A stretch of DNA of 35,534 nucleotides from a virus. The translations under genes were made by a program, and so were the position numbers. Positions 2,969 to 11,883 of the stretch are shown here, one piece after another. The stretch covers positions 1 through 35,534 of the IMG/VR virus record IMGVR_UViG_3300032898_000012; one strand, written 5' to 3'. Positions within the stretch are counted from its first letter, which is position 1. The number at the start of each line of letters is the position of its first letter. The notes under the pieces are model-generated. The model searched no databases, was not told the DNA's origin, and saw only the letters and a list, made by a program, of their open reading frames with translations.

Positions 2969-3198
2969 GGCGTGGTCCACCAGTCGCGTCCGCGCTGCCG
3001 CTTGATGGCGATGCAGGCCGGGCACCAGGGCGCCTCGTCGCTGGCGTTGTTGACGTCGGCCTGGTGGCTGGCGTCAACGCCGCACAGGGCGCGCCGGGCG
3101 GTGGCCGCGACCATGTGCGTCAGGGTGGGGATGCCGCCCTGGATGCTGCGCGGGCCGGCCTGGTGCGTCGGCTGCTGGGTGGTGGTGCTGGTGGTCAT
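2965..3198 (-). CDS. Small protein with possible zinc knot
   Basis: A 77-residue protein. The N-terminus is Thr/Gln-rich and probably flexible. The remainder contains Cys39, His44 and a WCPAC pair, enough for one zinc site of the form Cys-x4-His and Cys-x2-Cys; similar short zinc-ribbon phage proteins often lie beside replication genes. Its ATG overlaps the stop of the replication initiator by one base (TGATG), and its own stop overlaps the next ATG. It is therefore translated with the initiator. The exact role is unknown. Confidence 0.6.
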   Translation of the reverse strand: MTTSTTTQQPTHQAGPRSIQGGIPTLTHMVAATARRALCGVDASHQADVNNASDEAPWCPACIAIKRQRGRDWWTTP

Positions 3199-4100
3199 CA
3201 GGCACTCCTGGTGGCGAGCGGGTGGCAGGTCGGGCAGCGCGCGGCGCGGCCGTCAGGGGTCTCGATCAGCCGGTTCGGGCCGCACGCTCCGCAGGGCTCG
3301 GGCAGCGTGCTGGTCGGCGCGCGGGTGTACGGGCCGGTCGGCAGCCGGGAGATCAGCCAGCCGCCGACGTTGCTCAGCTGGTCCGGTGCGTCGATGGCCA
3401 TGCGGCTGGCCAGCAGCTGGGGTGGCCAGCCGACGGCCAGCAGCTCGGCCAGCACGGTGGTCACGCGCCCAGCGGCGGCACGGCCGGGCCGCAGCCGGGG
3501 CGGCAGCGCGTCGAGCACCTGCTGTGCCTGGGCGTCGGTCTTCGAGGGATCACCGACCGCCCGACCGGCCTGGGCGGCCGGCTCGACCGGCTCGTCCGGC
3601 GGCGCGGGGGGTAGGGGGGTAGGTAGTTCTTCTCTTCTCTTCTCTGGGGCCGTGACGTCACGTGACACGTCACGTGACACGTCACGTGACGTGTCACGTG
3701 ACACGTCACGTGACGTGTCACGTGACACGTCACGTGACGGCTCGTCAGGCGGCGTCGCCGTGCCGGCACCGCGCCGGCGCTGGCGCTGGCGGTCCCGGTC
3801 GGCGCGTCGGCGCGCCTCCAGGGCCTCCAGCTCGGCCTGGTCCTCAGCCCACCGCACGTCCACGTACCCGCCGTCGGCCGGCGCCCACAGCTCGTGCTCG
3901 ACCAGCGCGGCCACCTGGGAGTCCACGTCGGCCGCCCCGAAGCGGCGCAGCTGAGTGCGCGGGATCGCGCCGCCGGTCTTGGCCCGGGTGATGTAGCAGC
4001 GGGCCATCACCCACAGCCAGCCGGCACCAGGCACGTCGGCGTCCGCAGCCTGGATGGCCGGGTCGTCGTCGAGGGTGGCCGGCATCTTGAACCAGTCCAC
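3198..4100 (-). CDS. Replication initiator-like protein with internal SRD repeats
   Basis: About 300 residues. The N-terminal 90 residues (VDWFKMPATLDDDPAIQ onward) resemble the winged-helix replisome-organiser/DnaD-like domain of phage initiators. A basic helical stretch follows, then a tetrapeptide array of SRDV/SRDT units, an acidic-proline linker, a second helical domain (residues about 185-265) and a C-terminal zinc ribbon (CGAC and CPTC). The gene contains seven TCACGTGA palindromes at exact 12-bp spacing, the layout of an origin inside an initiator gene, as in lambda O. The start is GTG at 4100, preceded by AGGAG seven bases upstream and two bases after the previous stop; a GTG at 4151 has no such site. 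Initiator function is inferred from architecture and iterons; no helicase or polymerase gene accompanies it. Confidence 0.7.
   Translation of the reverse strand: MDWFKMPATLDDDPAIQAADADVPGAGWLWVMARCYITRAKTGGAIPRTQLRRFGAADVDSQVAALVEHELWAPADGGYVDVRWAEDQAELEALEARRRADRDRQRQRRRGAGTATPPDEPSRDVSRDTSRDVSRDTSRDVSRDVSRDVTAPEKRREELPTPLPPAPPDEPVEPAAQAGRAVGDPSKTDAQAQQVLDALPPRLRPGRAAAGRVTTVLAELLAVGWPPQLLASRMAIDAPDQLSNVGGWLISRLPTGPYTRAPTSTLPEPCGACGPNRLIETPDGRAARCPTCHPLATRSA
3658..3737. repeat. Seven 12-bp iterons with TCACGTGA cores; candidate replication origin
   Basis: The octamer TCACGTGA occurs seven times, beginning at 3658, 3670, 3682, 3694, 3706, 3718 and 3730, with a strict 12-bp period. The four-base linkers are CACG or CGTG. 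Each core is a perfect palindrome, so every unit is a potential dimer-binding site. The array encodes the SRDV/SRDT repeats of the initiator. Immediately to the left (about 3624-3646) is a pyrimidine tract of TTCTC words, a plausible easily unwound element. The geometry resembles phage origins embedded in their initiator gene. Function as origin is inferred. Confidence 0.6.
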
Positions 4101-4102
4101 GA

Positions 4103-4213
4103 TCAGGCTCCTGTCATAGTCAGATGGGTGAGCAGGGCGGCGCCGATCCACTCCGTGTACGCGGGAGGGATGGCCTGCCGGGCGCCCTGCGGCTCCAGTG
4201 CGGTGATGCCCAT
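4103..4213 (-). CDS. 36-aa ORF resembling the C-terminus of a phage cytosine-5 methyltransferase
   Basis: A 36-residue reading frame whose ATG overlaps the upstream stop (TGATG at 4215-4211) and whose stop lies two bases before the initiator's GTG. Its core, RQAIPPAYTEWIGAALLTHL, matches from memory the final segment of many phage and bacterial DNA cytosine methyltransferases, which end in a similar RxAIPPAYTEWIG block. No methyltransferase catalytic region (PCQ or ENV motif) is present upstream; the preceding gene is a nuclease. It may be a remnant kept because it couples translation to the initiator, or a genuine microprotein. The methyltransferase link is an inference from a short motif. 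Confidence 0.45.
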   Translation of the reverse strand: MGITALEPQGARQAIPPAYTEWIGAALLTHLTMTGA

Positions 4214-4578
4214 CACGACGCGTCCGCGTCGTGCAGCAGCGCCGCGAAGGCCGCGCCGGTCATCGTCACGTACCACTCGCCCGGGTCGGCCCGGCCGCTG
4301 CGCTTGTGCCACACGGCGCCGAGCCACGCGCCCGCGTGGTCGCGCTCCACGTCCGCCTCACGCAGCCACGCGCTGAGCGTCAGCTGGCGGCAGTCCTTGA
4401 CCTCGATTACCACGCCGGGGATGCCGGCGATGTCGCCCTCGTCCAGGCGCCCACGCCGGGCGCGGCGCTCGGCGTGGGCGAAGCCGTGGTCGCGCAGGTA
4501 GCGGGCGACGGCGGTCTCGGCGCGGGTCCCGGCGTCGCGGGCGCTACGCCGAGACCGGCGGGTAGCGCTATCGGTCAT
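4213..4578 (-). CDS. PD-(D/E)XK nuclease, Holliday junction resolvase-like
   Basis: A 121-residue nuclease of the archaeal-Hjc-like type often found in actinophages. The catalytic pattern is visible: GTRAETAVARYLRDHGF carries the first glutamate, GDIAGIPG the metal-binding aspartate, and VIEVKDCR the E-x-K pair. Members cut branched DNA such as Holliday junctions during phage recombination and before packaging. ATG at 4578 is preferred because GGAG lies six bases upstream; the in-frame ATG at 4659 has no ribosome-binding site. It is followed by the methyltransferase-like remnant and the initiator. A strong hairpin separates it from the upstream gene, so it may head its own transcriptional segment. 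Fold confidence is high; resolvase specificity is less certain. Confidence 0.75.
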   Translation of the reverse strand: MTDSATRRSRRSARDAGTRAETAVARYLRDHGFAHAERRARRGRLDEGDIAGIPGVVIEVKDCRQLTLSAWLREADVERDHAGAWLGAVWHKRSGRADPGEWYVTMTGAAFAALLHDADAS

Positions 4579-4670
4579 GGTGGGCTCCAGGGTGGTGGTG
4601 CCCGCTGCCGGCGCAGTGTGCGGACGCGCGCCGGCAGCGGGGATCTGAGGGCTCGTCATCGGGCACGCAC

Positions 4671-4701: not shown

Positions 4702-5109
4702 TCAGTCGGCGAGCAGCCGCCACTCGCCGGCGTACTCCCGCTGCCGGCCGATGCGGTAGGTGCCGGGCTCGATGAGCAGCGCCCCGTGCTCGGGGTGCGA
4801 GAGGAGAGCCTGCTCGCCGTCGGGGACGGTGAGGGTGCCCAGCAGGGTGCTCTCGGTGGTGCCGTCGGCCGGCGTCCAGTAGCAGTCGGCGCCGAGCAGC
4901 AGGTGGGTGTGGCCGCCGTCCTCGCCGCGCACCACCGGCACACCGGCGGCCGGCATGGGGATGGTGGCCGCGCCGGTGGTGACGCGCAGGATGCTGACGT
5001 CGCCCTGCGCGGCGGCGTGGCTGATGACCGGCACCGTCACGGTGCGGTCGAGGTGCTCCAGCAGCGCCAGGCCGTAGGTCTGTTCCGCGTCGGACAGGGT
5101 CGTGATCAC
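4702..5109 (-). CDS. Partner-type protein of DUF6745 genes, ending RQREY
   Basis: About 135 residues, soluble. The N-terminal helix is followed by a beta-rich region with QGDVSILRV, a RGEDGGHTHLL block with a His-x-His pair, and a C-terminus reading EPGTYRIGRQREYAG. From memory, this order (QGD...GE.GH.H...PPG.Y.V.RQREY) is a small family of unknown function often encoded next to DUF6745 proteins in actinobacteria and cyanobacteria, as here. GTG at 5109 is chosen because AGAGGA lies eight bases upstream; the in-frame sequence before it would run through a perfect palindrome and into the previous gene. It is bounded by hairpins on both sides. Molecular function is unknown. Confidence 0.65.
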   Translation of the reverse strand: MITTLSDAEQTYGLALLEHLDRTVTVPVISHAAAQGDVSILRVTTGAATIPMPAAGVPVVRGEDGGHTHLLLGADCYWTPADGTTESTLLGTLTVPDGEQALLSHPEHGALLIEPGTYRIGRQREYAGEWRLLAD

Positions 5110-5168: not shown

Positions 5169-6758
5169 TCACCGGCGGCATTCCAGGCGGCGGTAGGCCT
5201 CGATCGGCCACTCGTACAGATCCGCCGCCGCCGCGACCGGATCCTCATGGTGTGCGGGCACGATCAGCCCGTAGCGGCGGCGGGTCCCGTCGCGCTCGAC
5301 GCTGCCGTTGACGGCCAGCAGCAGCCGTGCCGGCCACGTGTACATGTCGGCCAGGTCGGGCGGCAAGTCGTAGAGCGCCAGCTCGTGGGGCGCGTTGCCG
5401 GGGTCCGGCGCGGTGGCCACGGCGCGCAGCCCGGCGTCGGCCACCAGCCGCTCCCAGCCGATGCGCTCGATCGCGCAGCGGCGGATCTCCGCGTTGGGCT
5501 CGGCGAGGATCTGCTCCACGGTCCAGCCGTCGCCCTCGATCAGGGAGGCGGGCACGCGCCGGCCGTGCCAGTAGTGCAGCGCCCAGCCGTCCCACGCGAT
5601 CGCCGGGCCGGTGGCGCAGTGCAGCCGGTGACTGCCCCACCCATCGGGGGCGACACGCTCGGTGTGCAGCACGCGCGGACGCTCGGCGACGATCACATAG
5701 TCGCGGTGCGCCCACCACCAGCCGGCCGACTGGGCGGCATCGTAGGCGCGGGCGCGCTCCCACAGGTCGCCGGGCAGTTGGAGGCCGCACACGTCCCGGT
5801 AGTAGGCCAGGGAGGCGCCCCATGCCGCCCAGTGCTGACCACCCAGGTAGCGCCACCAGTAGACGACGCCGCCCACGGCGTCGCGCACCGCGCGGTGCAC
5901 GGCGTCGCGCACCGCGTCGTGCACTGCGCCGCCGACCGCGACGTCCACGACGTCGTGCACTGCGTCGCCGACCGCGACGTCCACGACGTCGCGCACTGCG
6001 TCGCCGACCGCGCGGTGCACGGCGACGCGGTGCGCGTCGTGCACCGCGCGGTGCACGGCGGCGCGCACCGCGTCGTGCACTGCGCCGCCGACCGCGACGT
6101 CCACGACGTCGCGCACCGCGTCGTGCACCGCCTCGACGACCGCGTCGTCCACGACGTCGTCGTCGTCGTCGACGTCGTGCACCACGCCGCGCACCGCGAC
6201 GCGCACCGCGACGCGCACCGCGTCGTGCACCGCGTCGTGCACGGCGTCGCCGACCGCGACGTGGTGCACTGCGCCGTGCACGGCGTCGCCGACCGCGACG
6301 TCCACGACGTCGTGCACCGCGTCGTGCACCGCGCCGCGCACCGCGCCGCGCACTGCGCCGTGCACCACGTCGTCCACGACGTCGTCGACGTCGTCGACGT
6401 CGTGCACCGCGCCGCGCACCGCGCCGCGCACCACGTCGCGCACTGCGCCGTGCACGGCGTCGACGACCGCGACGTCCGCGACGTCGTCGACGTCGTCGAC
6501 GACGCCGCGCGTAGGGCGTCTGTCAGTCAGTAGCGACGCCGCGATCGGCCCGGCCAGCGCCACCACTAGCGGCGAGGGCACCCACACGATCCGTGCCGGC
6601 TGCGTCAGCCCGGCATACCGGTAGCAGTCCCGGATACCCGCCTCCACCACCGCGTGATCAGCCGGCGACGTGTCCACGCCACGGGCGACCCACGCGGCCA
6701 CATGCGCCGGAATCGCCGCCCGCTGCTCATCCGTCAGCGCGGTGATGCGAGTACTCAT
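5169..6758 (-). CDS. DUF6745-like protein with long tetrapeptide-repeat insert
   Basis: A 529-residue protein in three parts. Residues 1-85 (LTDEQRAAIPAHVAAWVARG onward) match the usual N-terminus of DUF6745 proteins. Residues 86-299 are a degenerate four-residue repeat of the form [DG]-[AV]-V-[HRDG], rich in Val, His, Asp and Arg. Residues 300-529 are the C-terminal domain with YWWRYLGG, SAGWWWAHRD, a LHCATGPAIAW-DGWALHYWHG block, and NAEIRRCAIERIG. Other members carry shorter V-R-D-Q type repeats at the same place, so the insert is a family trait expanded here. ATG at 6758 overlaps the upstream stop and has GGAG seven bases upstream. No catalytic residues are identifiable. It probably works with the following RQREY gene. 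Function is unknown. Confidence 0.7.
   Translation of the reverse strand: MSTRITALTDEQRAAIPAHVAAWVARGVDTSPADHAVVEAGIRDCYRYAGLTQPARIVWVPSPLVVALAGPIAASLLTDRRPTRGVVDDVDDVADVAVVDAVHGAVRDVVRGAVRGAVHDVDDVDDVVDDVVHGAVRGAVRGAVHDAVHDVVDVAVGDAVHGAVHHVAVGDAVHDAVHDAVRVAVRVAVRGVVHDVDDDDDVVDDAVVEAVHDAVRDVVDVAVGGAVHDAVRAAVHRAVHDAHRVAVHRAVGDAVRDVVDVAVGDAVHDVVDVAVGGAVHDAVRDAVHRAVRDAVGGVVYWWRYLGGQHWAAWGASLAYYRDVCGLQLPGDLWERARAYDAAQSAGWWWAHRDYVIVAERPRVLHTERVAPDGWGSHRLHCATGPAIAWDGWALHYWHGRRVPASLIEGDGWTVEQILAEPNAEIRRCAIERIGWERLVADAGLRAVATAPDPGNAPHELALYDLPPDLADMYTWPARLLLAVNGSVERDGTRRRYGLIVPAHHEDPVAAAADLYEWPIEAYRRLECRR
5862..6503. repeat. 12-bp periodic degenerate coding repeat
   Basis: About 640 bases built from words such as GCGTCGTGCAC, GACGTCCACGACGTC and GCGCACCGC, with a predominant 12-base period that encodes the four-residue repeat of the DUF6745-like protein. 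The frame is kept throughout; there is no stop. The repeat also leaves the opposite strand open over its entire length, which explains long antisense reading frames here. Such an array is prone to slippage and length variation. Confidence 0.75.
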
Positions 6759-10223: not shown

Positions 10224-10475
10224 ATGACACACCGTCAGAAGCGGATCGCGCTAGTGGCTCTCGCATGGCTGCCGGCAGTCCTGATGATCGTGCTGCCATC
10301 CAGCGGCGCGCTCGGCTGGCACCGCTGGATGGACAGCGCCGAGGACGTGGCCGCAGCGGCCGCTGCGGCCACCACCGTAGCCGTCGTCATCCTCGACGAG
10401 ATCGTCGTAGCCCGGATCTCCTACATCCTCGGCTACCGCGCCGGCAGCATCAGCCGCCCACCGCACCGCGACTGA
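10224..10475 (+). CDS. Small membrane protein (83 aa) between repressor and integrase
   Basis: An 83-residue protein with two membrane segments, about residues 7-25 (IALVALAWLPAVLMIVLP) and 40-60 (AAAAAAATTVAVVILDEIVV), a short loop, and a positively charged C-terminus. ATG at 10224 follows GGGGAGG with a spacing of five bases. It converges on the integrase and overlaps its 3' end by 26 bases. Membrane proteins in this position are often expressed from prophages and can alter superinfection, but no family is recognised, so that role is only a possibility. Confidence 0.65.
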   Translation: MTHRQKRIALVALAWLPAVLMIVLPSSGALGWHRWMDSAEDVAAAAAAATTVAVVILDEIVVARISYILGYRAGSISRPPHRD

Positions 10476-11883
10476 GGCTGATGCGAGGCAGCACGTCCGT
10501 GGGGTGCACCAGCACCCGCGCACCAGCCAGCGCAGAGGCGATCATCGCCCGGCGCTGCCCGGTGGTGGTCTGCGGGTGATCCCACGTGCGCGCCACCTCA
10601 GCCGGATCGGCCGGCGTCATCGGCACCGACGATGGCGCCGGCAGCGCCGCCAGCTCCGCACGTAGCTGCTGGGCCTGCCGATCCAGCGGCAGCACCGCCG
10701 CGTCGTGCCGCGCGAGGCTGATCTCGCCTCGGCCCAGCCGCTCGGCCAGGGTCACCGCGATCGTCTCCAGCTCCTCCAGCCGCGCCGCGAGCTGCTGGCT
10801 GCGCGCGGCCAGCTCGCCCTGCGCGACCGCCCGAGCAGCAGCGGCCCGGGCATCGGAGAGCCGGTCGATCACCAGATCACGGAGCCACTCCTCCAGCACC
10901 TCAGCCAGGATGTGAGATCCCAGACAGCCGGTCCCGAGCCGCGAGGATGCCGGGTGGTAGCAGCCGTAGGCGCGCTTGCGGGTGCCGTCGGCCAGGGGTG
11001 CCTCCAGCCTGCCGGTCAGCGGCCGGGCGCACGGCGCGCAGTCCACGTACCCGACCGCCAGGTACCGGTGCGAGGGCTGCCGTCCGGCCGCGCGCGCAGC
11101 GCGCTGGGCGACCAGGCGCTCCCAGTCGGCACGGTCGATGATCGGCTCCATAGTGCCCACCTCCTCACCCTGGTGAGTGAGGATGCCGGCCACGCTCGGC
11201 CGGACCAGCCAGCGACGCAGCGCGGTCTGCGAGACTGGGGCGCCACTCAGACCTGTGATGCCGCGCTCCCGCAGGTCCCGGACGATGTCCGCGTCAGCCT
11301 CGCCGTCGAGCGCCCGCGAGGCTGCCTCACGCAGGATCGCCGCCTCCTCCTCGACGACGGTGCCGTCCACCCGACGGCCGAACCCGCGCTTGCCATTCGG
11401 CAGGTGCTCGACGTGGGCGCGGTCGCGCTTGCCACGGGCGACCGCGTCCGAGAGCACGTCCGAGTAGTAGGCAGCGCTGGCGATGATGTCCCGCACCCGC
11501 TTGCGGTCCTCGTAGGAGTACAGATCGTACGTGATCTGGCTGGACACGAGCAGCAGCGGACGCGTCCGCGTCGCCAGCATCGCGATCATCTCCTCGGCCT
11601 CACGGGGCTGCCGGGTGTAGCGCGCCAGCTCGTACACCCAGGCACCGTCGGTGACCTCGGCGCCGAGCCTCTCCATCAGCGCGTCCCACCCTGGCCGGGG
11701 GCCACCAGTCCAGGCGGAGCGCCCGTCGTCGCGCAGCACCTCACCGGCGTGCCATCCGCGTGCTGCGATCGCGCGCCGCCCAGCGGCGATCTGGGAATCC
11801 ACGCTTTTGGCCTTCATGTCGCGCTTGCGGGATACGCGGCCGTAGATGTCCAGCAGGAGGTCCGCGTGCTCTTGCGATGCCAT
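10450..11883 (-). CDS. int: Large serine recombinase (phage integrase)
   Basis: A 477-residue serine integrase. Residues 10-150 are the resolvase domain with the catalytic serine at 18 in YGRVSRKRD and the arginine-bearing WVYELARYTRQ segment. Residues about 155-270 form the recombinase domain (GKRGFGRR and the WLVRPSVAGILTH motif). A zinc beta-ribbon uses Cys282, Cys285, Cys308 and Cys320, with a coiled-coil motif (about 345-400) that controls directionality. It inserts the phage into the host chromosome at attB. No separate excisionase is recognised. ATG at 11883 has AGGA eight bases upstream, inside an inverted repeat that may hold attP. No breaks or missing key residues are seen. Confidence 0.95.
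   Translation of the reverse strand: MASQEHADLLLDIYGRVSRKRDMKAKSVDSQIAAGRRAIAARGWHAGEVLRDDGRSAWTGGPRPGWDALMERLGAEVTDGAWVYELARYTRQPREAEEMIAMLATRTRPLLLVSSQITYDLYSYEDRKRVRDIIASAAYYSDVLSDAVARGKRDRAHVEHLPNGKRGFGRRVDGTVVEEEAAILREAASRALDGEADADIVRDLRERGITGLSGAPVSQTALRRWLVRPSVAGILTHQGEEVGTMEPIIDRADWERLVAQRAARAAGRQPSHRYLAVGYVDCAPCARPLTGRLEAPLADGTRKRAYGCYHPASSRLGTGCLGSHILAEVLEEWLRDLVIDRLSDARAAAARAVAQGELAARSQQLAARLEELETIAVTLAERLGRGEISLARHDAAVLPLDRQAQQLRAELAALPAPSSVPMTPADPAEVARTWDHPQTTTGQRRAMIASALAGARVLVHPTDVLPRISLSRGAVGG

Follow-up and report, generated by a model that had tools for sequence, protein, structure and literature searches.

The phage DNA analysed here (35,534 nucleotides, hereafter the window) encodes a DUF6745 protein in which a long array of four-residue units lies between two conserved end domains, and in its relatives the variation inside such arrays falls nearly always at the third residue of the unit (x) and partly at the fourth (y). 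The explanation that best covers the evidence as a whole, to which we assign a probability of roughly 36%, is that of a two-gene module, formed with a neighbouring partner gene, in which the array is reshuffled, the x side chains are selected and the array works as a tether making weak contacts. According to this proposal, DUF6745 and a partner protein with a His/Glu/Asp cluster would constitute an accessory module of phages, prophages and some chromosomes, and would together carry out a conserved chemistry or binding. In the phage form the array holds the end domains apart; recombination among its 12-bp units would quickly lengthen, shorten and reorder it while the backbone stays uniform, and selection would maintain several side chains at x and fewer at y, usually Arg and Gly with an aromatic or acidic residue. 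As to mechanism, the likeliest is an extended tether that, through exposed side chains at x, would contact a varied partner weakly and at many points, its reach and surface being retuned in each lineage. The original prediction had described the insert and the C-terminal domain; the adjacency of the partner gene and the single-residue variation in relatives go beyond it.

The window is the DNA of a temperate phage and encodes an integrase (10450-11883), a portal protein, a head protease and a terminase. The DUF6745 gene (5169..6758, minus strand) starts with ATG at 6758 and codes for 529 residues plus a stop, in an architecture that is the same in homologs. The N-terminal conserved domain (residues 1-82; 6513..6758, minus), defined by alignment and modelled by AlphaFold2 with pLDDT mostly 91-97, has the consensus LTxEQ...W...GLsT.PaDR..AE....Y..AGL..P..vW..SP and is also found in chromosomal and cyanophage homologs. 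It is followed by the tetrapeptide array (residues ~84-299; 5862..6509, minus), delimited by TRF, lag identity and AlphaFold2, and by the C-terminal region (residues 301-529; 5172..5858, minus). The proposed membership of this last part in DUF6745 is borne out by the Pfam profile (PF20530), which matches residues 338-521 (5196-5747) with E 1.2e-21 and a score of 77.4 bits, the cut-off being 27. Conserved H, DG and N-x-E-x-R-R motifs are what the window protein has in common with the family, whose phage members differ in the array inserted between the N-terminal region and the domain; the alignment and the AlphaFold2 model give the invariants of the C-terminal region as H380, G384, D390, G399, N422, E424, R426 and R427. 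A chromosomal DUF6745-like protein (L185, 4984-6336, minus) has pentapeptide repeats in place of the C-terminal part.

Structure prediction, which had been proposed as a check on the repeat, returned a helix for the array at low confidence (pLDDT ~49-74), so that a helical fold is weakly predicted. The Foldseek and VIA matches of the whole model (best 4ke2, an antifreeze protein, Z 8.7) fall mainly on this low-confidence long helix and were discarded as meaningless, and PDB profile searches gave no credible match. Residues 433-503 produce weak VIA and Foldseek rows to WRKY domains and RnlA (Z 2.9-3.8), which are leads only. Long open frames on the plus strand opposite the array (5247-6533) were rejected as genes, being a by-product of the GC-rich 12-bp repeat. 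A literature search for DUF6745 or for the repeat peptides found no paper naming either.

The array of the window comprises ~53 units over ~212 residues, a length that comes from a single metagenomic record and agrees with the insert of more than 50 units and some 214 residues first described. TRF finds a 12-bp period with 48.9 copies and 67% matches, and the lag-4 residue identity of the protein is 0.49 against 0.21 +/- 0.03 in shuffled sequences (z 10.5). The notion that the repeat is strictly four-residue does not hold for this copy, because the pattern, a degenerate (A/V)-V-[H/R/D/G/V]-[D/G/A/R], keeps its V in register only over runs of 14, 11, 10, 7 and 6 units, between which there are one-residue slips and acidic patches. 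Its variant codon types are 3 synonymous and 7 nonsynonymous. L100 and L176 have clean arrays of the nearest types, AVDG/AVRG and AVHD/AVDG respectively. The window copy is thus a degenerate member of the array class and may be old or decaying. The class itself is not an assembly artefact, a concern raised at the outset, since similar arrays are present in genomes of isolates that were sequenced independently, an M. abscessus prophage being one example.

Arrays at the same site were found in 70 of 81 viral homologs and in 12 of the 78 chromosomal homologs counted, which were the top matches (Fisher p 1e-20); several of the array-bearing chromosomal homologs are close to prophage copies (L016 and L017 with L101 and L107). 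The family also has members devoid of an array, namely gp174 of the lytic cyanophage Ma-LMM01 and chromosomal homologs, and the array is therefore not essential to the core function. Among relatives it ranges from 6 units to 77, and no length stands out as preferred, so that 53 units are not extreme; the idea that repeat length evolves holds, and the statement that relatives have shorter repeats is right in that shorter arrays exist and wrong in that longer ones exist as well. The units follow the formula [Q/S/A/T]-[V/L/T]-x-y, in which the first two residues are constant inside one array and differ among arrays (QV, QL, AT, AV, SL, SV, TV). Many arrays have G, R and W at x, others G, D, Y, R and H, while y is for the most part D, S, A or G. 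On a Nocardia farcinica plasmid (L008, ~480-1400), a QV[R/G/W][A/D] array changes reading frame internally, through either an error of sequencing or a genuine frame shift, and owing to this switch the annotated DUF6745 gene begins in the middle of the array.

The variation is localised even more sharply in the DNA. In 65 arrays (1912 units) plus that of the window, mean nucleotide entropy is 1.37, 0.57 and 0.79 bits at x1, x2 and y2, and no more than 0.20 bits elsewhere, silent sites included; the low values at unit positions 1, 2, 4 and 5 derive partly from how the core units were picked, while those at positions 3, 6, 9, 10 and 12 are independent of that choice. Variant codons at x and y in the 65 arrays, counted as independent although they are not fully so, comprise 240 nonsynonymous and 1 synonymous, where ~26% synonymous would be expected, and thinning at 70% identity (49 arrays) leaves 191 and 1. 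An overlapping gene was considered as the cause of the constancy of silent sites and rejected, because no frame other than the main one, which is open in 65/65, stays open in every array. These figures bear directly on the view of the array as a functionless neutral minisatellite growing by slippage. Fast change of copy number and the many homologs that lack the insert are what it would lead one to expect, but neutral drift would make about a quarter of the variants synonymous, against 1 in 241 seen, and would hardly hold a frame open across hundreds of codons in every array counted; we regard this view as disfavoured and quite improbable.

Rapid homogenisation accounts for the uniform backbone. 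It does not account for diversity confined to the amino-acid-changing sites of x and y, which suggests selection for side-chain diversity, inferred from the purely nonsynonymous character of the variation. At least three different x residues are kept in 63 of 65 arrays. The order of x along the array is close to random (lag 2 z 3.0, other lags weak), with no strong period seen, so that the data fit selection for a mixed composition as well as selection for specific recognition. That protein repeats can evolve fast and horizontally under positive selection is already known in general (Persi, Wolf and Koonin, 2016; PMC5120217), and the repeats in question, homogenised and with high dN/dS within an array, resemble those of the phages; the phage pattern differs in being nearly absolute and restricted to set positions of the 12-bp unit, an extreme and localised natural case of repeat evolution under selection.

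How fast the arrays turn over can be appreciated in close pairs. Two prophages (L007 and L116) with 99.7% identity across 12.4 kb of flanking DNA differ in array length (50 and 23 units, respectively) by a few block gains or losses, and another pair (L107 and L108), with ~1% flank divergence, shows a similarity of unit order no better than that of shuffles. The set of units nevertheless persists in the clade: L016, L017, L101, L107 and L108 have x codons and backbone in common, while in their more distant pairs 38-45% of same-residue C-domain codons differ. We infer that the turnover is caused by recombination between 12-bp units, and that an enzyme lies behind it. The single Arg codon used at x in 51 of 52 arrays indicates that the variants are old and reshuffled, not made afresh. 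It thereby weighs against targeted mutagenesis of the kind found in diversity-generating retroelements, which the restriction of variation to 1-3 of 12 nucleotides might recall; moreover, the changes are not adenine-specific, and reverse transcriptase (PF00078) was found in 0 of 24 phage records, some of them possibly incomplete. This origin of x diversity strikes us as most improbable.

A more serious competitor, possible though doubtful, sees in the array a spacer or ruler of tunable length, in which the number of units matters and x varies for solubility or against aggregation. It has precedents in the TAEL repeats of type IC S subunits (EcoR124I/II; PMC3874165) and in the 12-bp repeats carried by H. 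pylori S genes (PMC3077401), which are likewise four-residue, flanked by two domains and variable in copy number. One extra TAEL repeat shifts the two DNA-binding domains by one base pair (PMC3874165). The location of the array between two folded domains, its 12-bp unit, the helix prediction, the different lengths in near-identical phages and the random order of x all fit a spacer. On the other hand, S-subunit repeats number 2-6 units, against the wide range of the phage arrays without a favoured length, and the consulted parts of the same two papers describe no hypervariable residue. The Pfam scan of the window protein, moreover, returned DUF6745 alone above the cut-off, with no HsdS domain, so that no HsdS target recognition domains flank its array as they would in a type IC ruler. 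A pure spacer does not need x diversity and would not exclude synonymous variants, and the x pattern stays unexplained.

TAL effectors, whose helical repeats of 34 residues read DNA by a known code, provide another point of comparison. They too combine a uniform backbone with one or two hypervariable positions in each unit and a reshuffled order, and the first two of these features are present in the relatives of the window protein, the window copy being degenerate. The phage units have four residues and an order that looks random. It is conceivable, though in our judgement unlikely, that the phages possess a new type of modular array for recognition, a solenoid or rod of tetrapeptides whose units each have one residue that recombination reshuffles, so that every lineage acquires its own binding surface, and that this array works with a conserved two-protein machine at sites of phage DNA replication.

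Composition lends itself to a further interpretation, namely that the array is a sticker-and-spacer low-complexity region (Arg, aromatic residues and Gly/Ser/Asp/Gln) that forms clusters or condensates at phage replication sites, with composition and not order under selection. Arg is among the x residues of 62 of 65 arrays, Gly of 55 and an aromatic residue or His of 56, and this composition is maintained in a near-random order and in the setting of replication modules. Arrays of the AT type are, however, poor in aromatic residues, and regions of this kind do not require a period of four with a fixed V, L or T. We consider it rather unlikely.

One observation is not fully explained by the preferred model of a reshuffled tether. 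Within a clade that includes viral (L107, L101) and chromosomal (L016, L017) members, codons for the same amino acid differ, at 80-95% identity, in 12% of cases in the arrays vs 41% in the C domain. This excess conservation could reflect exchange of arrays between phages or a constraint at the level of DNA. Another idea is that the array is a translated DNA element, a recombination or origin site whose backbone is conserved as DNA, and the better conserved codons of backbone and x alphabet, as well as a second 12-bp array in the nearby replication initiator gene, speak for it. Nevertheless, the backbone DNA is wholly different among phage groups while the amino-acid pattern is retained, only the main frame is open throughout, and the variation is only nonsynonymous, which makes such an element very unlikely.

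The neighbourhood of the DUF6745 gene in the window consists, on the minus strand, of the partner gene, a RusA-like Holliday junction resolvase (phrog_244; 4213..4659) and a phage replication initiation protein (phrog_2447; 3198..4151). The 12-bp array inside the latter (3655-3739, minus) codes for SRD[V/T/G] and contains CACGTG palindromes; it could represent origin iterons inside the initiator gene. In related phages, RecT, RecE, Erf, RusA, RuvC-like proteins, helicase and replication initiator are encoded near DUF6745, and phage pairs of DUF6745 and partner lie mostly within replication-recombination regions. This setting, together with the PADLOC models of known anti-phage defence, of which only weak matches were obtained (best E 0.039, none significant), does not favour the earlier idea that the protein may act against a host or a competing system.

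The partner gene (phrog_27831; 4702..5109, minus) directly adjoins the DUF6745 gene on the same strand and codes for 135 residues from a GTG start at 5109, after AGAGAGG. When open reading frames were clustered, a single family stood next to DUF6745 in 73 of 82 loci, and a profile search finds the partner in 71 of the 78 viral loci and 79 of the 80 chromosomal ones, either upstream or downstream and on the same strand. Six of the seven viral loci that lack it are cut upstream, and the single chromosomal one stops ~40 bases past the DUF6745 gene. Because similarity to the query had guided the choice of these loci, 149 genomes from one phylum, sampled evenly, were added; DUF6745 occurs in 4 of them (5 copies), with the partner beside 4 of the 5 copies. 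No third conserved neighbour was found in the chromosomal loci. The two genes are thus co-located, and their proteins would presumably function jointly. On a Mycolicibacterium plasmid (L013, 3228-5549), a DUF6745 protein of 773 residues as annotated has its N-terminal and part of its C-terminal module duplicated, and no partner gene was detected there.

Across 76 sequences the partner has the invariants G36, H69, H105, H108, E125 and D135, the last residue, and AlphaFold2 models it with confidence (pLDDT 93.8) as a small beta protein. It has no significant match in Pfam or NCBIfam, and its model none by Foldseek at E <= 0.001. Cupins are frequent among the weak VIA rows (best Z 3.1, rmsd 3.3 A, 70 aligned), and three invariant His and a Glu recall cupin-like small beta-barrel metalloproteins, although Z is far under that of a confident match. 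A metal site in the partner is therefore a guess, the model having no confident match in the PDB.

Such an array is found in dozens of phages that are unrelated to one another, as part of a widespread and undescribed two-gene module with clear invariant residues, and hypervariable repeat arrays often signal molecular recognition under conflict. Near-identical prophages that differ in the array make any effect of its content or length on phage growth, lysogeny or replication directly testable in laboratory strains.

In Ma-LMM01, the homolog gp174 and the partner gp175 form a pair inside the block of replication genes, surrounded by DNA polymerase gp178, exonuclease gp180, uracil-DNA glycosylase gp173 and clamp loader gp169. 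A transcriptome account (PMC5780444) assigns the last four to the middle, replication class and, in the part consulted, does not name gp174 or gp175. Beside the pair, the hypothetical protein gp176 (L186, 2788-3891), whose sole match is a phage-specific PHROG, resembles a sliding clamp by eye.
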